From positions 1 to 34,679 of IMG/VR virus record IMGVR_UViG_3300044729_001332: DNA of 34,679 nucleotides. The stretch is one strand, 5' to 3'. This stretch comes from a virus. The notes under the pieces are model-generated. The model saw nothing but the letters and a program-made list of their open reading frames with translations, searched no databases and was not told the origin of the DNA. How positions within the stretch are numbered: the stretch's first letter is position 1; the number at the start of each line of letters is the position of its first letter. The translations under genes and the position numbers were made by a program. This document shows, one piece after another, positions 3,501 to 15,196 of this stretch.

Positions 3501-3718
3501 CCGGACTACTCTTCGCGTACTTCTTTATCCATGTGGCAGGCTTTCACATGGTCATGAAACGCATCTTGAAACGGCCCGGAAGGCTAAAGCCGTTTGATTG
3601 TTTGCAATGCCTTACAGTGTGGTCAAGTCTTGCATTATATTTTCTACCGATAGAAATCAGTCAATGCATAGCCATCTGCCTTGGCGCAGGTTATTTTGCA
3701 ACAATGTTTCAAAAATGA
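3482..3718 (+). CDS. Small membrane protein with CxxC motif
   Basis: 78 aa, function not recognised. Two or three hydrophobic segments (about residues 2-20, 46-58 and 60-74) flank a short basic loop with FDCLQCLTVW, a CxxC pair that could bind metal or form a disulfide. It overlaps the sigma-like gene by 19 bases and the glycosyltransferase by an ATGA stop/start overlap. Its position at the head of the glycan cassette suggests a membrane partner of those enzymes, but that is only context. Confidence 0.6.
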   Translation: MFIAGIAGLLFAYFFIHVAGFHMVMKRILKRPGRLKPFDCLQCLTVWSSLALYFLPIEISQCIAICLGAGYFATMFQK

Positions 3719-4767
3719 TAGATATTTCAGTCATTGGCTTTACCGGAAAAGATAGCGGATGTGGCTATCATAGAGTACTGATGCCGCTCGCTTACATGTC
3801 TGATATTACCGGACATGTGACCAATGCCTTAACGCCGGAGCGCACGCACGACTGGGATATCTTGCTCTACAACCGGATCAGTCCTTTCGATGATGACTGG
3901 CAGTTTGTGCGCGATCAGTTGAATTGTAAAGTAGTGCTTGACTTGGATGACTGGTGGAAGCTACCGCCGAACCACATTCAGGCCGAGATGTATGACGAGT
4001 TTGCTGCAAGGATTGAAAGGAACATAGGCACGGCAGACTGGATAACGTGCAGCAGCCATGCGCTATACGATAAGCTCATAAAGTTATCGGACAAGGTAAC
4101 GCTTGTACCGAATGCGCTGCCTTACGGTCACAACCAGTTTATCGAAGACAAGGAGCCGTCAGCCGATGACCGGGTACGGTTGTTCTGGTGCGGCTCCATT
4201 ACTCACGAGCATGATGTGGCCATCTTGAAGAATCCACTGCGCAGGTTGTCCTTCCTAAAGAACAAGATTACCATGATGCTCGGAGGATACAACAATAGCG
4301 ACCCTTACTCGGAGTACCTATGGAAGCGTATACTGCACAACTTCACCGGCGGCGGCATGCTCGACTATCAAGTGCTGCCAAGCCAGCCGGTAAAAACATA
4401 CATGGACTTATATCAGTATGCCGATATCATGCTGATACCTTTGGAGGAAAGCGAGTGGCATGCGTGTAAGTCAAATCTTAAGATATTGGAGGCCGCTGCA
4501 AAGCGGATACCCTGCGTAGTCAGCAAGGTGCTACCTTACTCAAATGATGCCGATGCTCCGGTTCTATGGGTTGAAAAACAGAGCGACTGGTTCACACACT
4601 TAAACTATCTTATCAATAATGAAGAAGCGCGACAAGAATACGGCAACAGACTCTACGAATGGGCCAAAGCAAAGTACGACCTCATCGAAATCAACCAGCG
4701 AATCAGACGACCGCTTTTTGGAAGTCTTTGCGAGGCACGAACACATCTGGAAGCTTTTTGTGATTAG
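3715..4767 (+). CDS. Glycosyltransferase, GT4/GT-B-like
   Basis: 350 aa from the ATG at 3715, which overlaps the previous stop as ATGA; the longer open frame from 3598 is antagonised by that overlap and looks non-coding. The C-terminal half has the GT-B features: an FWCGS strand near residue 160, a nucleotide-sugar site around LIPLEESEWHACKSNLKILEAAA (about 242-264), followed by the PCVVS strand. A DLDDWW motif lies near residue 80. It should transfer a sugar from an activated donor to an unknown acceptor, either host surface glycan or a virion component. It begins a three-enzyme cassette with the acyltransferase and the second glycosyltransferase. The last 20 residues may be less reliable because the downstream gene overlaps them. 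Confidence 0.8.
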   Translation: MIDISVIGFTGKDSGCGYHRVLMPLAYMSDITGHVTNALTPERTHDWDILLYNRISPFDDDWQFVRDQLNCKVVLDLDDWWKLPPNHIQAEMYDEFAARIERNIGTADWITCSSHALYDKLIKLSDKVTLVPNALPYGHNQFIEDKEPSADDRVRLFWCGSITHEHDVAILKNPLRRLSFLKNKITMMLGGYNNSDPYSEYLWKRILHNFTGGGMLDYQVLPSQPVKTYMDLYQYADIMLIPLEESEWHACKSNLKILEAAAKRIPCVVSKVLPYSNDADAPVLWVEKQSDWFTHLNYLINNEEARQEYGNRLYEWAKAKYDLIEINQRIRRPLFGSLCEARTHLEAFCD

Positions 4768-4930
4768 TCAGGAGTTGGTGAACTTCCACCATCAGATACA
4801 AGCGGAGCTTCTGGTTGCCTACCGGGCAATGGTAGATCCGTTCTATTTCTATAACAATAACTGCCGGGAGTGCGTGCAGGAATTTATAACCAGATGCTAT
4901 ACATGGTATGAATCAAAGATTTCCAAATAA
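4718..4930 (+). CDS. Small conserved phage protein with a Cys pair
   Basis: About 70 aa if it starts at TTG 4718, or 56 aa from GTG 4760; a longer frame from ATG 4619 exists but its extra N-terminus is low-complexity and lies out of frame inside the glycosyltransferase, so I reject it. The recognisable part is helical and ends with AYRAMVDPFYFYNNNC, RECVQEFITRCYTWYES. Cysteines arranged CxxC plus one more suggest a metal site. Similar short proteins with a Cys pair near the C-terminus are frequent beside glycosyltransferases in Bacteroidota phages (from memory). The gene overlaps both neighbours, so it is probably translated by coupling. Function unknown. Confidence 0.5.
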   Translation: MEVFARHEHIWKLFVISQELVNFHHQIQAELLVAYRAMVDPFYFYNNNCRECVQEFITRCYTWYESKISK

Positions 4931-5405
4931 TGATATACATCCTACTGCTATTATCTATGAAGGAGTAGAGATAGGCGAGGAAAATATTATCGGGCCGTAC
5001 TGTATTATAGGCGCACCTGCGGAGTGGAAAGGGCATGACAAAGAAAGCGGCCGCGTGTACATAGGGAACGGCAATGTAATAACCGGACTTGTTACGATAG
5101 ATAGCGGAGTTAATCACCGTACTATAATCGGCAATAACTGCTATATCATGAAGCATGCTCATATCGGGCATGATGCTATAGTGCATAGCCATGTAACCAT
5201 ATCTTGCGGAGCCAAGATAGGAGGCCATGCTCTAATAGGAAATGAGGTGAATATCGGACTCAATGCGGTTATACATCAGAAGTGCGAGGTGCCAGAAGGC
5301 TGCATGATAGGAGCATCCGCTTTCGTTGGCAAAAAGTCTATATTGAAACGCAACCATAAATACGCAGGAGTTCCGGTTAGAGATTTAGGCTTAAATTTAA
5401 GATAA
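4908..5405 (+). CDS. LpxA-like left-handed beta-helix acyltransferase
   Basis: 165 aa made almost entirely of hexapeptide repeats ([IVL]-G-x4 pattern, residues about 12-142), which fold as a left-handed beta-helix trimer. The stretch MKHAHIGHDAIV at 81-92 matches the catalytic region of UDP-GlcNAc acyltransferase LpxA, with H85 and H88 in the places of the two conserved histidines, and NHRTIIG upstream fits too. It is much shorter than LpxA (about 260 aa) and lacks the C-terminal helical domain, so the acyl donor and acceptor are uncertain; O-acetylation of a sugar is an alternative. It overlaps the preceding gene by 23 bases and its stop shares a base with the next ATG, which places it firmly in the glycan cassette. 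Confidence 0.75.
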   Translation: MNQRFPNNDIHPTAIIYEGVEIGEENIIGPYCIIGAPAEWKGHDKESGRVYIGNGNVITGLVTIDSGVNHRTIIGNNCYIMKHAHIGHDAIVHSHVTISCGAKIGGHALIGNEVNIGLNAVIHQKCEVPEGCMIGASAFVGKKSILKRNHKYAGVPVRDLGLNLR

Positions 5406-6001
5406 TGAAAGTACTTGTCTGCTGCCTTACCTATGGAAACCGGCCATTAGATATAATACATTCCAACTTGGAGCGTGCAGGGTATCCTTTTAATTTGCGG
5501 TTCATAAATGTTGAAGGTATTGCCAACGCTTTGAATGATGGTATCTATGAGGTTGAAGGCTATGATGCCATCGCCTATCTTGCGAACGATATAAGAGAAC
5601 CGGACAACTGGCTTAAAAAGAAAGTGGAAGCATTGTTAAACTATCCAAATGCAGGCATTATCGCTTCCTCGCTTGGCTATGTTGAGAATCAAATAAGGTC
5701 GCAGCACATCATCAGCAACTGGCTTATAAGCAAAAGCCTTATAGATCGAATAGGCATCTTTAACGAGTCCATGTTTCCTTATGGCCCTATCGATTTAGAT
5801 TATTGCGAGCGTGCTAATGTAGCAGGCTTTTGTACTTATTACTGTGTAGACTGCATGGCCGAACACTTTACAAGTGAAAACAATAATACAGAATACGGAT
5901 ATAACAAGCAGGACATGATTGCCAAATATTGGAAACAACACGAAGAGGAATTGTTGCAATATCGAAACGGAACTAAAGATATAAGACATGGCAAACCATA
6001 A
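5405..6001 (+). CDS. Glycosyltransferase, GT2/GT-A-like
   Basis: 198 aa. The N-terminus KVLVCCLTYGNRP is the first strand and loop of a GT-A fold, and residues 60-66 (LANDIRE) sit where family 2 enzymes carry their DxD metal motif. The later FPYGPIDLDYCERA near 120-133 matches the conserved ED/acid helix region. It is short, a catalytic core without membrane segments. Starts one base after the last sense codon of the acyltransferase. Likely adds a sugar to the same glycan as the first glycosyltransferase, but acceptor and donor cannot be read from the sequence. Confidence 0.7.
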   Translation: MKVLVCCLTYGNRPLDIIHSNLERAGYPFNLRFINVEGIANALNDGIYEVEGYDAIAYLANDIREPDNWLKKKVEALLNYPNAGIIASSLGYVENQIRSQHIISNWLISKSLIDRIGIFNESMFPYGPIDLDYCERANVAGFCTYYCVDCMAEHFTSENNNTEYGYNKQDMIAKYWKQHEEELLQYRNGTKDIRHGKP

Positions 6002-6016
6002 GCAAATTTCAAAAGT

Positions 6017-7216
6017 ATGATTTACAGAAACATTACAGAAATAAAGCCAAACCCAAAGAATCCGCGCACCATCCGTGACGATAAATTCAAAAAATTGGTC
6101 AAGTCAATTCATGACTTTCCGCAAATGTTGGATAAACGGCCTTTGGTGTGCTTCACCGATACCGATGGCAAATTGGTTGTGTTAGGTGGTAATATGCGAT
6201 TAAAGGCGGCAAAGGAGGTTGGGTTGAAGGAATTGCCAGTTGTATTAGCGGACGATTGGACCGAGGAACAAAAGGCGCAATTTTTGATAAAGGATAATGT
6301 TGGATTCGGCGAGTGGAACTGGGATGAATTAAAAGCCGATTGGGATTTGGAAAAATTGGACGATTGGGGATTGGATGTGCCGGATTTTGAAAGTAAACAA
6401 CTTGAAGCACAGGATGATGACTACGAGATGCCGGATGAAATTAAAACAGATATCGTACTTGGTGATTTGTTTGAGATAGGAGAACACCGTTTAGTTTGTG
6501 GGGATAGTACAGATAGCGACCAAGTAGCAAAGTTAATGAATGGGGAAAAGGCTGATATGGTATTTACTGACCCTCCTTACTTAATGGATTTTGATGGTGG
6601 AATGACTACAAATAAAGAAGGTAATTGGACTAAATCTTTTAACGCATCTCACGGAGGAATTAAAAACGATAAAATGGATAAATCTAAAGAAGCTGATTTT
6701 TTAGATAGTATAAATGCAAACATTCAATTATTTACAAAAGGTGCTTTTTACATTTGTTTTTATAGATTAAAACTTGGTGATTATTTCAGTTCTTTGGATA
6801 GAACTGGATTAAAAACAAGAACTTTAATTACTTGGAATAAAGGTAACCATACAATGAGCAATTCAGATTATTGGAGTAAATGCGAACATATATTTTATGG
6901 TTGGATTGACGAGCATAATTGGTATGGAGGCAATGATTATGATATTTGGGATATTTCAAGAACACAAAAAAACGATTTGCACCCAACAATGAAACCTATT
7001 CCTTTATGCGAGAAAGCAATAAATAATTCAAGTAAAGAAAATAATATAGTATTTGATTTATTTTTAGGTTCAGGTTCTACAATGGTAGCATCACACCAAC
7101 TTAAACGCAAATGCTACGGCATGGAATTAGATCCAAAATATTGTCAGGTTATTATTGATCGTATGCGCAAACTTGATCCGACATTAACAATAAAAAAGAA
7201 CGGCAATGCCATTTAA
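6017..7216 (+). CDS. ParB-like domain fused to DNA (adenine-N6/cytosine-N4) methyltransferase
   Basis: 399 aa. Residues 1-100 are a ParB/Srx-like domain with the GGNMRLKAA motif at 58-66. Residues about 145-390 are an N4/N6 methyltransferase of the beta class: catalytic DPPY at 185-188 comes before the AdoMet-binding FLGSGS at 349-354, followed by YGMELDPKYC. Such fusions are widespread in phages; they methylate phage DNA, probably to block host restriction. Codon and base use differ from the neighbours: positions 6661-6720 have 13 G+C in 60, against 29 in 60 at 8041-8100, so at least the target-recognition stretch looks acquired. The gene overlaps the small terminase by 11 bases. No restriction enzyme is seen. 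Confidence 0.9.
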   Translation: MIYRNITEIKPNPKNPRTIRDDKFKKLVKSIHDFPQMLDKRPLVCFTDTDGKLVVLGGNMRLKAAKEVGLKELPVVLADDWTEEQKAQFLIKDNVGFGEWNWDELKADWDLEKLDDWGLDVPDFESKQLEAQDDDYEMPDEIKTDIVLGDLFEIGEHRLVCGDSTDSDQVAKLMNGEKADMVFTDPPYLMDFDGGMTTNKEGNWTKSFNASHGGIKNDKMDKSKEADFLDSINANIQLFTKGAFYICFYRLKLGDYFSSLDRTGLKTRTLITWNKGNHTMSNSDYWSKCEHIFYGWIDEHNWYGGNDYDIWDISRTQKNDLHPTMKPIPLCEKAINNSSKENNIVFDLFLGSGSTMVASHQLKRKCYGMELDPKYCQVIIDRMRKLDPTLTIKKNGNAI

Positions 7217-7604
7217 AAAAGGAGTTACACCACCGGGTGCAAAGCCATTTGTAAAAGGGCAAAGCGGAAACCCTAAAGGGCAGCCGCGAAAGTTAGTATC
7301 TCGGTTTGTAGATTTAGGCTATTCAAAGTCAGAGGTTAATTCTACGATTGCTGCTATGCTTGCAATGACGATGGATGAGCTTAAGAAGGTGGCGGAAAGC
7401 GCGGATAGTACTATACTCGAAAAAACTATTGCTTTCACATTAAAAAAGAATTTAGAAAAAGGAAGCTTGTATGCAGTCGATTTATTGCTGAATCGCAACC
7501 ACGGAAAACCTCAGGAGATGGTGGAAGTTAATGCAGATATTAAAAAGGTGATTGTTGTCCAATATGGAAACCCAGAAAATAATAATACAATTCAATCCGC
7601 ATAA
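7206..7604 (+). CDS. Terminase small subunit-like protein (DUF5681-type N-terminus)
   Basis: 132 aa. The N-terminus KGVTPPGAKPFVKGQSGNPK and then GQPRK is the KGQSGNPKG signature of DUF5681 proteins, often encoded upstream of large terminases. Residues 35-110 are predicted helical with a possible HTH near STIAAMLAMTMDEL. The small subunit binds phage DNA and directs the large subunit in packaging. It starts inside the end of the methyltransferase and its end overlaps the large-subunit ATG at 7564, the expected TerS-TerL order. Confidence 0.75.
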   Translation: MPFKKGVTPPGAKPFVKGQSGNPKGQPRKLVSRFVDLGYSKSEVNSTIAAMLAMTMDELKKVAESADSTILEKTIAFTLKKNLEKGSLYAVDLLLNRNHGKPQEMVEVNADIKKVIVVQYGNPENNNTIQSA

Positions 7605-8739
7605 GGCGCAACATAAAGTATTAACAAGTGCGGCTCGATTCCGCGTTCTTATGTGCGGAAGGCGTTTCGGGAAGTCTCTTATATCTCAAATCATATCAAT
7701 CGAGCAGGCAACCTTCGGTAATAGTATTGCCTATATTACTCCTACATATCAGCTGGCAAAAGTGTTCTTCGATGAAATGATAAAGAACCTTCCGCAGGAT
7801 TTGTACGAGTGCAATCGTTCCGACCTCGTTATCAAGTTCGATGGCGGCGGCAGCATCCGCTTTTTTACCGGTGAGCGGCTCGATGCGATGCGTGGCCTGC
7901 GCTTCCATCTGGTGATAATCGATGAGGCGAGCTATATCTCCGATCTCGAAACCGGATGGCTTAATAGCATACGGCCCACCTTGACAGATTATCAGGGCCG
8001 GGCCATCTTCCTATCTACTCCGAAGGGCCGGAACTACTTTTACTCCTTATTCCTGAAAGATGGCGAACCCGGATGGCAGTCGTTCAAGTTCACCACTTAC
8101 GATAATCCCCACATCAACCCGGCGGAGATAGACGATGCAAGGGCCTTACTGCCTACTGCGGTCTTCGAGCAAGAATACATGGCTAATGCAATGGAGAACG
8201 CGAGCAATCCGTTTGGGAGCAGCCATCTGGCGGAATGCGTTCGGCCTATCAGCAGCCGTCCTGCCATAGCTTATGGCATTGACCTTGCCAAGTCAGTTGA
8301 CTACACGGTTGTAGTCGGCTTGGATGATACCGGAACTGTCTGCCACTACGAGCGGTTCCAAAAGGACTGGAACCTTACGAAGGAGACCATTCGGCAACTG
8401 CCGAGAAATGTGCCTATGCTGATAGATAGCACCGGGAACGGAGACCCGATCACGGAGGACTTGCAGAAGCACTTCGGCAGGATGACCGGGTTCAAGTTTA
8501 CCAGTACCAGCAAGCAGCCGTTAATGGAGGGCCTTGCCTCGGCCATCCACCAGAGGAAGGTGTTCTTCCCAGATAACTACATAAAGACCGAGCTTGAGAT
8601 ATTCGAGTTCCAGTACACGGCTACCGGGGTAAAGTACGGCGCGCCGACTGGGTTCCACGATGACTGCGTTTGCGCTTTGGCTTTGGCATGGAAGTGCTAC
8701 AACGAGAACCGGAGTGCCGGGCAGTATTATTTCATCTAA
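7564..8739 (+). CDS. Terminase large subunit
   Basis: 391 aa from ATG 7564; an upstream TTG at 7552 would add four residues. ATPase: Walker A CGRRFGKS at 31-38, Walker B LVIIDEAS near 117-124 and coupling motif FLSTPKG near 155-161. Nuclease: GIDLAKSVDY near 234-243 (first acid), LIDSTGNGDP near 287-296 and FHDDCVCALALAW near 364-376 (last acids), the RNase H-like pattern. It translocates DNA into the prohead and cuts the concatemer. Length is slightly short of typical (400-500 aa) but every motif is present. The TerL type (cos or headful) cannot be decided from motifs alone. Confidence 0.95.
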   Translation: METQKIIIQFNPHKAQHKVLTSAARFRVLMCGRRFGKSLISQIISIEQATFGNSIAYITPTYQLAKVFFDEMIKNLPQDLYECNRSDLVIKFDGGGSIRFFTGERLDAMRGLRFHLVIIDEASYISDLETGWLNSIRPTLTDYQGRAIFLSTPKGRNYFYSLFLKDGEPGWQSFKFTTYDNPHINPAEIDDARALLPTAVFEQEYMANAMENASNPFGSSHLAECVRPISSRPAIAYGIDLAKSVDYTVVVGLDDTGTVCHYERFQKDWNLTKETIRQLPRNVPMLIDSTGNGDPITEDLQKHFGRMTGFKFTSTSKQPLMEGLASAIHQRKVFFPDNYIKTELEIFEFQYTATGVKYGAPTGFHDDCVCALALAWKCYNENRSAGQYYFI

Positions 8740-8754
8740 ACAAAACGACAAAAT

Positions 8755-9426
8755 ATGTCTTATTATAGTATGCGGATTAGTGTTAAGCAGTTTCAGGAGT
8801 TGTACTTTATCAGTGAAAGGTGGGAAGCCGACATCGATAAGAGCATTAAGCTTGTCGGCGTGATTACCGGAAAGACTCCGGAAGAGGTGGAGGCTATGAA
8901 GATAAGGCCGTTCAATAAGCTATGCGCCAAGATACAGAAGCAGTTCAGCCTGCTGGAGCGTGACTGGATGAAGTCGAAGCCGAGGAAGCTGGTACGGATA
9001 GGCAAGCGGTTCTACCGATTGCACTACGATATTACCCGGTTCCCGAACAATGCCGGTAAGTATATCGATGCGATGTCGTTCAGCAAAGAACTTGTGCCGA
9101 ATATCCACATAATCATGGCAACGATGGCGGAGCCGGTGAGTTGGTTGGGTAAGCCTTATAAACTTGAGCATAGCGAGATAGCGGCGGATATGGAGAAGAT
9201 GGACTTCGAGGTAGCGTATCATGCTGCGGTTTTTTTTTATCTTCTATTTCAAGCGTCAATGAGCGTTACCCGGCCTTATTTGGTAAGGGAAATAACGAAG
9301 CAGGGGATAAAGGAGGAAACGGCGGAACTGCTGCTGAACTATTCATCGAGACTTTTGGCTGGGTTGCAAATGCCAAGATGGTCGCTGAACATGAGGCAGT
9401 ACCTCTCGAATCGGTTTGGGGTTTAG
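8755..9426 (+). CDS. Tail assembly chaperone, unshifted product
   Basis: 223 aa. The globular part (FYRLHYDITRFPNNAGKYID, then AMSFSKELVPNIHIIM) and the IAADMEKMDFEVAYHAAVFFYLLFQASM helix resemble a family found in the tail modules of Bacteroidota siphophages. A run of nine T at 9230-9238 carries a perfect U UUU UUU slippery site in the reading frame. The -1 frame is open from 9174 to 9521 and encodes a protein-like extension, so the gene most likely makes two products, as lambda G and GT do. These chaperones coat the tape measure protein before tube polymerisation. Without the frameshift evidence I would have called it only a conserved phage protein. Confidence 0.65.
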   Translation: MSYYSMRISVKQFQELYFISERWEADIDKSIKLVGVITGKTPEEVEAMKIRPFNKLCAKIQKQFSLLERDWMKSKPRKLVRIGKRFYRLHYDITRFPNNAGKYIDAMSFSKELVPNIHIIMATMAEPVSWLGKPYKLEHSEIAADMEKMDFEVAYHAAVFFYLLFQASMSVTRPYLVREITKQGIKEETAELLLNYSSRLLAGLQMPRWSLNMRQYLSNRFGV

Positions 9427-9521
9427 GGGTTCTGCACTTTTTGAACGACCTACTTTATATTAAAATGAAAAGCGAGTACGATGTCGAACAATATAACCGG
9501 CAGTCAAAAGGAAAATATTGA
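9237..9521 (+). CDS. -1 frameshift extension of the tail assembly chaperone (GT-like)
   Basis: Reading shifted by -1 after residue 161 adds 94 residues, giving a 255-aa fusion that stops with TGA at 9519-9521. The extension has a glycine/glutamate-rich linker (GKGNNEAGDKGGNGG), then an ordered part with ETFGWVANAKMVAEHEAVPL and LHFLNDLLYIKMKSEYD. The pattern of W-G-W-like aromatic, amphipathic helices and basic tail resembles the second half of tail chaperones in related phages. There is no good start codon of its own in the upstream half of this frame. It overlaps the next gene's start at 9481 by 41 bases. The frameshift itself is inferred. Confidence 0.6.
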   Translation, partial: LSSISSVNERYPALFGKGNNEAGDKGGNGGTAAELFIETFGWVANAKMVAEHEAVPLESVWGLGVLHFLNDLLYIKMKSEYDVEQYNRQSKGKY

Positions 9522-10077
9522 TTTCATCAAGCAGCTCAATGAGGCTCCTGATGGTGAGGTTGTGCAGGATGCTCTGGTAACATCGGCGAACTATTTCCTT
9601 GATGTGTTGGTGAAGAAGGTTGAAAAATACAAGCTTGTAAATACCGGAGATTTAACAACAAAAGCCAAGATTGAGGAGATAGGAAAAAATCAGGTGGATG
9701 TCAAGCTTCCGTACTATTATGATTTTATAAATAAAGGTGTGCGCGGAGCCAAGAGCAAGCAGCCTGCCAGCTCGCCTTATAGCTTTAAGGATTCCTTCAG
9801 CATGAGTGAGGAAGGCCGGAAGAACATAAAGAGCCTGATTGATAACGGTAAGGCAAAGCTGCGAGTCGTTAAGCCGGGTAAAGAGGTAGGTTTAGAAAAA
9901 AAGCGGCGTAGCGTGGCAGACATCCAGCTCGATACCTTAATATTCAGAATCAAGTCCTACGGTATCAAGCGGCGGCCATACTTCGATGAGGCATTGAAAG
10001 AAAGCAAACAGAAGATAATTGATATAGTCGGAGAAGCATACGGAAAGGAAATAACTTTAAGCATTAAACCTAAATAA
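9481..10077 (+). CDS. Head-tail or tail completion protein (HK97 gp10-like)
   Basis: 198 aa. Residues about 15-80 show a helix followed by strands (VQDALVTSANYFLDVLVKKV, then a KLPYYYDFINKGVRG stretch) and residues 155-185 (IKSYGIKRRPYFDEAL) resemble the gp10-type neck/tail completion fold with the typical R-P-hydrophobic ending. I assign it by shape and position, not by a signature motif. Two bases separate its stop from the next gene. A tail tube-associated structural protein is the alternative. Confidence 0.5.
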   Translation: MSNNITGSQKENIDFIKQLNEAPDGEVVQDALVTSANYFLDVLVKKVEKYKLVNTGDLTTKAKIEEIGKNQVDVKLPYYYDFINKGVRGAKSKQPASSPYSFKDSFSMSEEGRKNIKSLIDNGKAKLRVVKPGKEVGLEKKRRSVADIQLDTLIFRIKSYGIKRRPYFDEALKESKQKIIDIVGEAYGKEITLSIKPK

Positions 10078-13318: not shown

Positions 13319-15196
13319 ATGGCAGAAGAAGTTGCGTTATCGATAAAAGTAAATGCAGAACAAGCGAATCAGTCTGTCGGCAGCTTTAAGAAGCAGCTGC
13401 GTGAGGCAACGGCTGATCTTGTGAACATGTCGATGCAGTTCGGTGAGGCTTCTGCGGAGGCGCAGGCAGCAGCGAAGAAGGTGGCAGGATTGAAGGATGC
13501 CATCGGCGATGCGAAGGCTCTTGCTGATACGTTCAACCCGGATAAAAAGTTTGTTGCACTTGGCGGAGCATTGCAAGGAGCTACTGCCGGGTTCTCCGCG
13601 CTTCAAGGTGCTATGGGTTTGTTCGGAGGTGAGTCTAAGGATGTGGAAAAAGCACTGTTGAAGGTTCAGTCAGCTATGGCCTTGCAGCAGGGTATAAGCG
13701 GAATCGCCGGAGCTTTAGACTCTTTTAAACTTCTGAAGAATGAAATAGTCGGCGGAGTTACAAAGGCATTTAGCACATTACGCGGAGCCATTATTGCCAC
13801 TGGACTCGGTGCGCTTGCTGTTGGTATCGGTTTGCTGATAGCGAACTTCGAGAAGGTCAAGCAGGTTGTACTGAACTTCATACCCGGACTTGCTAAAGTA
13901 GGCGAGTTCGTAGGCAAGCTTATCAACAAGGTAACCGACTTCATTGGAGTAACCAGCGAAGCGCAAAGAGCGCAGGAGCGGTTTATAGCATCCAGCGAAA
14001 AGCAGTTAAAAGCTGCTAAGGATTTCCTTGATCAAGAGGGGTATAAATATGATGAGTTCACAAAGAGAAAGATTCAGGCTGATATCGATTATAAGGAGAA
14101 TGTACTGAAAGTAAATAAGGACACTACATTATCTGAAGCTGAAAAAAATAAAGCACTTAAAAACTTTGCCGATAAAAGGAACTTTGAATTAGATGAGGCA
14201 GACAAGGAAAGAAATAAGAAAGCACAAGATGCCGAAGATGAGAAGAATAAGAAGATAAAAGAGAAGCAGGATGCAGCGCATAAGGAGCGTATGCAGAAGG
14301 ACAAAGAAAGAGCCAAAGAGATAGCGGATGCAAATAAAGAGCAGGACAAAAGGCAGCTTGATTTGCAGCAAGAGATATATCTGCAAAGCATACAAGATGA
14401 AGATGCAAGAGCGCAGGAAAAACTACGCATCCAGCTTGAGAACAGTATAAAGGAAATAGAGCAGACAAAAGCAACAGAGAAAGAGAAGAATGAGACTATA
14501 AAGCTGCTGCGCGAAAAGTATAATCAAGATTTAAGCCAGCTGCAATTTGAACAAGTTGAAAAGCAGATAGCTGCTGATATTGAATTAACAGAAAAGCAAG
14601 CCGAAGCAAGAAGGCAGCAAGATGAGAAAGAATTAGAGGAAGCAAAAAAGAAAGCCGAAGAACAAAAGAAAATTGAAGAAGATTTCCTTAAAACACTTGC
14701 AGATATCAGGCAGAAGGATTTCGATAATAGAATGAAACTGCTTGATGCGGTAGGCAGTGGACTTACTGCATTGAGCGATATAGTAGGTAAGGAAACCGCA
14801 GCAGGAAAAGCTCTTGCCGTGGCATCTTCTTTGATTAATACCTATGCAGCAATAGCCGGGCAACTTAAAGCTTTCTCTGGAGTACCAGTTCCCGGTTATG
14901 CCATAGCGCAAGCAATAGTTACCGGACTTGTAGGATTTAAGGCAGTAAGAGACATCATAAAAACTCCGATACCCGGCGGCAAAGGTGGAGGCTCAACAAG
15001 TGGCAGCGTTCCAACTGGTGCAGGGGTAGCTCCTCCTCCTCCGCAGATTCAGTCAGTGCCACAAACTACCAGAATAGATCAGGGCCAAATCAACCAGATA
15101 GGCAATGCTGCGGTAAGGGCCTATGTAGTTGAAACAGAAGTAAACAGTCAGCAAGAGCGGCGCACACGGATTGAGCGTGCGGCTCGTATTGGATAA
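13319..15196 (+). CDS. Tape measure protein
   Basis: 625 aa. Organisation fits a tape measure: an N-terminal amphipathic region (SIKVNAEQANQSVGSFKKQL), a glycine/alanine-rich hydrophobic segment at about 155-180, a very long charged coiled coil at about 215-465 rich in Lys, Glu, Gln and Ala, a second hydrophobic stretch at about 475-540, and a Pro/Gly linker before a short basic C-terminus. Tape measure length sets tail length, so a siphovirus with a short-to-medium tail is expected. The coiled-coil part produces several long antisense open frames that are not genes. Confidence 0.85.
   Translation: MAEEVALSIKVNAEQANQSVGSFKKQLREATADLVNMSMQFGEASAEAQAAAKKVAGLKDAIGDAKALADTFNPDKKFVALGGALQGATAGFSALQGAMGLFGGESKDVEKALLKVQSAMALQQGISGIAGALDSFKLLKNEIVGGVTKAFSTLRGAIIATGLGALAVGIGLLIANFEKVKQVVLNFIPGLAKVGEFVGKLINKVTDFIGVTSEAQRAQERFIASSEKQLKAAKDFLDQEGYKYDEFTKRKIQADIDYKENVLKVNKDTTLSEAEKNKALKNFADKRNFELDEADKERNKKAQDAEDEKNKKIKEKQDAAHKERMQKDKERAKEIADANKEQDKRQLDLQQEIYLQSIQDEDARAQEKLRIQLENSIKEIEQTKATEKEKNETIKLLREKYNQDLSQLQFEQVEKQIAADIELTEKQAEARRQQDEKELEEAKKKAEEQKKIEEDFLKTLADIRQKDFDNRMKLLDAVGSGLTALSDIVGKETAAGKALAVASSLINTYAAIAGQLKAFSGVPVPGYAIAQAIVTGLVGFKAVRDIIKTPIPGGKGGGSTSGSVPTGAGVAPPPPQIQSVPQTTRIDQGQINQIGNAAVRAYVVETEVNSQQERRTRIERAARIG

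Follow-up and report, generated by a model that had tools for sequence, protein, structure and literature searches.

A predicted programmed -1 frameshift at an invariant nine-T run, with alternative C-termini, in a probable tail assembly chaperone gene of uncultivated phages

The window analysed here is the whole of IMG/VR virus record IMGVR_UViG_3300044729_001332 (34,679 bases), and the features surrounding the gene of interest are collected in Table 1. For the gene that follows it, profile searches returned no family match. Further from the site, a nine-A run (1564-1572), likewise long enough for slippage, lies inside a VirE/primase-like gene (500-2620) and has no evident second frame, and a T11 run (2780-2790) falls in a non-coding gap between two genes. 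The region between the replication-type genes and the terminase (3598-6001) is perhaps a surface-modification cassette: it encodes a possible group 1 glycosyltransferase (a weak match, E 6e-4), a hexapeptide acyltransferase (Hexapep, E 1.8e-18) and a 198-aa protein, without a family match, whose sequence is suggestive of a glycosyltransferase. Positions 6017-7216 encode a protein in which an N6/N4 DNA methylase is joined to a ParB N-terminal domain.

Table 1. Features at and around the slip site (window coordinates).
Feature	Coordinates	Strand	Basis or remark
Terminase large subunit gene	7552..8739	+	immediately upstream; same neighbour in P12024S
Frame-0 gene, N-domain to F161 plus 62-aa frame-0 tail (proposed 'G-like' product)	8755..9426	+	ORF
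Nine-T run, heptamer T_TTT_TTT in register at 9231-9237	9230..9238	+	sequence
-1 frame extension, 94 aa plus TGA (T-like domain)	9237..9521	+	kept in all intact relatives
Dual-coding stretch, 62 frame-0 codons plus stop, also -1 coding	9238..9426	+	both frames open, conserved
Next gene, 198 aa; starts within the -1 ORF, overlapping its last 41 nt	9481..10077	+	ORF list
Probable tape measure protein, 625 aa, expected chaperone partner	13319..15196	+	phrog_1538, E 6.5e-9

The nine T are flanked by G9229 on the 5' side and A9239 on the 3' side, and frame 0 reads GTT (9229), TTT (9232), TTT (9235) and TAT (9238) across them. An earlier note on this DNA had placed an in-frame U_UUU_UUU in this run and had described a -1 frame, open from 9174 to 9521, that would add 94 residues and run into the next gene. 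Both descriptions were confirmed in the sequence: the run and heptamer lie where they had been placed, and the -1 frame extends to TGA 9519-9521 with 94 sense codons counted from 9237. The earlier note was silent on the continuation of frame 0, which runs for 62 further codons past the slip to a TAG at 9424-9426, 186 nt away. The two products have about 160 N-terminal residues in common and differ in their C-termini. With a start at 8755 the frame-0 product is 223 aa and the fusion 161 + 94 = 255 aa, the length originally proposed, but ATG 8770 is more likely to be the start, since relatives begin at the equivalent position, and would give products of 218 and 250 aa.

The -1 extension reads as a short helix and a Gly/Ser/Asp/Glu-rich linker followed by helices (FGW..NAKMVAE... 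and FLNDLLYIK). The AlphaFold model, in which residues 16-30 are disordered and residues 31-53, 57-60 and 65-92 are helical, agrees with the initial guess of a linker followed by ordered helices. In the model of the frame-0 protein the slip position falls within a long helix (residues 151-182). A search of solved structures with both AlphaFold models gave matches that were all below Z = 4 and uninformative.

Relatives were sought by scanning viral contigs with the N-terminal part, with the -1 extension and with alignments of each; several hundred loci were recovered, many of which are overlapping stretches of the same contigs. All of the first 43 distinct loci carry GTT TTT TTT T and the -1 arrangement. 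In the main survey each of the two domains, N and -1, was sought with its own HMM, and the count was restricted to distinct IMG/VR loci carrying both; here the -1 domain lies in the -1 frame and the run is exactly nine T in 114 of 114 loci, the preceding base being G or C. A further scan, starting from the most distant members, gave nine T and the -1 arrangement in 63 of 64 loci, so that conservation of the slippery site and of both frames among relatives, proposed at the outset as a check, held in both surveys. Overall, the nine-T run is kept in 177 loci. The sole exception, an apparent in-frame case, is on L296, an indel-ridden contig: many indels are spread across the gene (2071-2790), probably from error-prone assembly, and we do not regard its broken T run as biology.

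This constancy spans considerable divergence. Among loci compared directly with the window, amino acid identity of the frame-0 protein falls to about 35%, and in a tree of the N-domain (41 rows) the median end branch is 0.28 changes per column; at such divergence each synonymous site is expected to have changed repeatedly. The run also exceeds what chance would give: the 43 distinct loci, 301,575 nt in all, contain 43 T9 runs at the site but only 11 other A/T runs of at least nine elsewhere. Phase variation through replication slippage was considered and ruled out, as the length of the T run is constant among intact loci.

A cultured relative, Nonlabens phage P12024S, came to light solely when predicted viral proteins were searched by fold with the frame-0 model as query. 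Its homologue is a 175-aa protein, about 21% identical to that of the window, and its gene likewise adjoins the 3' side of terL. Comparison of our N-domain profile with this protein (hhalign) gave 95% probability and a pairwise E of 2.8e-8 over 144 columns that end at the slip, where P12024S carries C-TTTTTTTTT-A (C-T9-A) in the same register and at the same alignment position. A -1 ORF of 80 codons follows the nine T. P12024S differs from the window family in its frame-0 tail, which is 27 codons long, in its -1 domain, which could not be aligned with that of the family by profile comparison, and in its annotation, the record listing two separate hypothetical proteins (ORF38 and ORF39), one of them a 55-aa protein from an internal ATG. 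Frame-only annotation, against which the earlier note had warned, calls the gene as one or, as in P12024S, as two, and the true long protein is lost.

Protein R9VW65 of Flavobacterium phage 6H (fold match E 0.02) was set aside, having neither T9 nor a clean -1 ORF. The BFVD entry A0A6J7WJY4, a 243-aa protein from an uncultured Caudovirales phage, matches the models of both the N-domain and the -1 extension, with 36% identity to the latter; in that phage the two domains are possibly fused in frame. A tblastn search of cultured phage records with the window and two distant members as queries found no relative. Nor did two scans for prophages in 84,980 species genomes, and we therefore take these phages to be lytic for the most part, or seldom integrated. 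Judging from the known relatives of the tailed phage, the hosts are probably Bacteroidota. A literature search, of incomplete coverage, yielded no report on this phage group or on T9 in a tail chaperone.

Could the -1 domain be reached without a frameshift? If these were two separate overlapping genes, the -1 ORF would be translated from its own start, by internal initiation or coupling. Frame 0 does overlap the -1 ORF, and P12024S is annotated in this manner, with its 55-aa ORF from an internal ATG. However, only a few of the 43 loci have an ATG, GTG or TTG in the -1 frame from the upstream stop to +90 nt, and in these it is a TTG that serves as the slip codon. In nearly all loci the first such codon (+141 in the window) lies 90-141 nt inside the conserved domain. 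Independent initiation therefore cannot yield the conserved -1 domain, and two genes would also leave the invariant T9 unexplained. We accordingly consider a two-gene arrangement very improbable. Even less credible is that the run is a sequencing or assembly error in what is truly one continuous frame. Homopolymers are error-prone, as the indels of L296 illustrate, and A0A6J7WJY4 matches both domains, but the same nine T recur in 177 loci and in a cultured phage, and error does not explain why frame 0 is open and conserved past the site.

Because T9 and the -1 arrangement are kept across the relatives, P12024S included, the reality of the -1 frame and the programmed nature of the shift are strongly supported on comparative grounds. 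The same holds for the extended C-terminus that had been proposed, given that every intact relative has the site and the -1 frame, and that the latter lacks an ordinary start. A programmed -1 shift that gives rise to two alternative C-termini is, in our estimation, very probable.

In the main family, frame 0 overlaps the -1 frame for 48-85 codons past the slip, and none of the 40 clusters has a frame-0 stop before 48 codons, while the third (+1) frame meets a stop after 1-27 codons in 41 of 41. When codons were resampled with the -1 protein given, the chance of frame 0 staying open for 48 codons was 0.03-0.59 per cluster. Multiplied over the 40 clusters, this comes to 10^-28.8; the converse calculation, in which frame 0 is given and the -1 frame must stay open, comes to 10^-73. 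Both figures treat the clusters as independent, which, being related, they are not fully, and neither is an exact probability. Identity was also compared with expectations obtained by holding the -1 protein fixed and drawing synonymous codons at random: in most near relatives the frame-0 tail is 45-55% identical to that of the window, against an expected 23-28%. The reverse test, with frame 0 held fixed, gives the same picture for the -1 frame. Among codons for the same amino acid, codon identity in the -1 frame is 0.79-0.90 within the overlap versus 0.50-0.68 upstream, but at high identity a control region coding in the -1 frame only gives 0.86 versus 0.87-0.90 for the overlap, which is nearly equal.

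It may nevertheless be argued that the frame-0 tail is incidental, and that function resides solely in the N-domain and the -1 domain. Among the more distant half of the family, tails range in length from 48 to 85 codons and show no sequence match to that of the window. Part of the apparent motif MPKW follows of necessity from NAKMV in the -1 frame, and the tail of P12024S is short. Against this stand the open frame in all 40 main-family clusters, with early closure of the third frame, and the identity among near relatives in excess of that expected from the -1 protein. An incidental tail thus seems improbable to us, and comparison of the sequences shows selection on the site and its exact length as well as on the -1 frame and the frame-0 tail. 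Over long distances the -1 domain is better conserved than the frame-0 tail, and the latter looks like a younger, overprinted sequence.

What can be said of function? Weak matches to PF10109 (Phage_TAC_7), the family of the P2 gpE and Mu gp41 chaperones, were found in 21 of 32 members (best E 9.9e-5), and the window protein scores 16.4 bits against 25, under the Pfam cut-off. Similarly, 20 of the 32 members weakly match phrog_166, which P2 gpE itself also matches. Single-sequence profile comparison with P2 E and E' produced no match, and P2 gpE relatives from IMG/VR were all near-identical and did not improve the profile. As to placement, chaperone genes of the G/GT type usually sit directly before the tape measure gene, with the major tail protein gene on their other side. 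The window gene instead follows terL, and three genes separate it from the downstream tape measure gene, which is on the same strand. Taking together the sub-threshold matches to the P2 gpE family, the position and the architecture, we consider a role as a G/GT-like tail assembly chaperone likely, and the original assignment plausible. One usual, though not indispensable, trait of chaperones, a frame-0 stop close to the shift, is absent from the window.

Comparison with known systems sharpens these points. P2 E/E+E' (PF10109, -1 shift at T_TTT_TTG) resembles the window in having one N-domain, a -1 shift on a T run and a C-terminal extension that overlaps the next gene, in addition to the weak N-domain similarity through PF10109 and phrog_166. 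It differs in its run (T6G rather than T9) and in the E stop, which comes 20 nt after the shift rather than 186 nt; moreover, P2 E is 91 aa and directly upstream of the tape measure gene, whereas the window gene has an N-domain of about 160 aa and a conserved frame-0 tail. Lambda G/GT, compared by description, likewise combines a common N-terminal part with a T-like extension reached via a -1 shift. The lambda slip heptamer differs from that at the T9 site, and lambda G/GT is not known to have a long dual-coding tail. The earlier note's likening of the locus to the lambda arrangement therefore stands for the -1 shift and the extended product, but not for the distance to the stop or the conserved frame-0 tail. 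In lambda the shift lies near the 3' end of G (PMC5009743), and in annotated phage chaperones the average distance from the shift to the frame-0 stop or overlap is 26 nt (PMC10885494). A further parallel is found outside phage tail genes, in Thermus thermophilus dnaX and bacterial IS elements, where nine A or T in coding sequence (A9/T9 slippage) give two products; for dnaX polymerase slippage has been shown experimentally, while slippage in the window is predicted.

This parallel bears on which machine slips. Should RNA polymerase slip on T9, the mRNAs would be a mixture, and those with one additional U (or two fewer) would yield the -1 domain when translated conventionally; the same proteins would be made for the same function, and only the slipping machine would differ. 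Several observations are in keeping with this. First, the run is exactly nine in every intact locus. On nine A or T, bacterial RNA polymerase slips efficiently in vivo (PMC5009743), and it is at this length that selection against A/T runs becomes evident in many genomes (PMC1088944). Second, T9237 to C would be silent in both proteins (TTT/TTC for Phe; TTR/CTR for Leu), yet the base is always T. U_UUU_UUC would remain a legal heptamer, T7C slip sites have been reported in P2-like prophages (PMC3931495), and elsewhere in the frameshift-family genes Phe is encoded by TTC in 85 of 280 codons (30%); still, this variant is unused at the T9 site. Third, no conserved stimulatory RNA structure was found upstream or downstream: single folds of eight stretches were not better than shuffles (z -1.5 to +1.6), and RNAalifold gave nine weak pairs with no compensatory change.

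Other points speak for the ribosome. The site contains a perfect heptamer for it, U_UUU_UUU may slip better than U_UUU_UUC, and the need to encode Val/Leu and Leu accounts equally well for the outer two T. Polymerase slippage would also yield waste products in the third frame, and where phages are known to achieve this (lambda, P2 and others) it is the ribosome that slips. On account of this precedent we somewhat favour the ribosome, leaving polymerase slippage as a possibility of lesser probability. More tentative still is the combined reading in which a widespread group of uncultivated phages, probably of Bacteroidota, would make a tail chaperone pair via polymerase slippage on T9 and use a dual-coded stretch of 48-85 codons to give each product a functional but distinct C-terminal domain.

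In the mechanism that we infer, which includes the occurrence and efficiency of the shift, the chaperone role and the ribosome as slipping machine, most transcripts would be read in frame 0 to give the N-domain with its 62-aa tail (218-223 aa), and at the nine T a fraction would be re-read in the -1 frame to give the same N-domain with the 94-aa C-terminal domain (250-255 aa). On the model of lambda G/GT and P2 E/E+E', coating of the tape measure protein would fall to the short form, and recruitment of the tail tube protein to the long form. As predicted from the two reading frames, the pair is one of alternative C-termini and not, as in known chaperones, of truncated and extended forms.

If this is correct, a large phage family would be added to the users of recoding in tail assembly, and one that stands out both for its invariant nine-base homopolymer and for a dual-coding stretch that is under selection and far longer than the usual frameshift overlap of phage tail chaperones. 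The invariance of T9 makes the choice between ribosome and polymerase directly testable, and the alternative C-termini raise the question of whether the short chaperone's tail does something beyond what the usual truncated G protein does.
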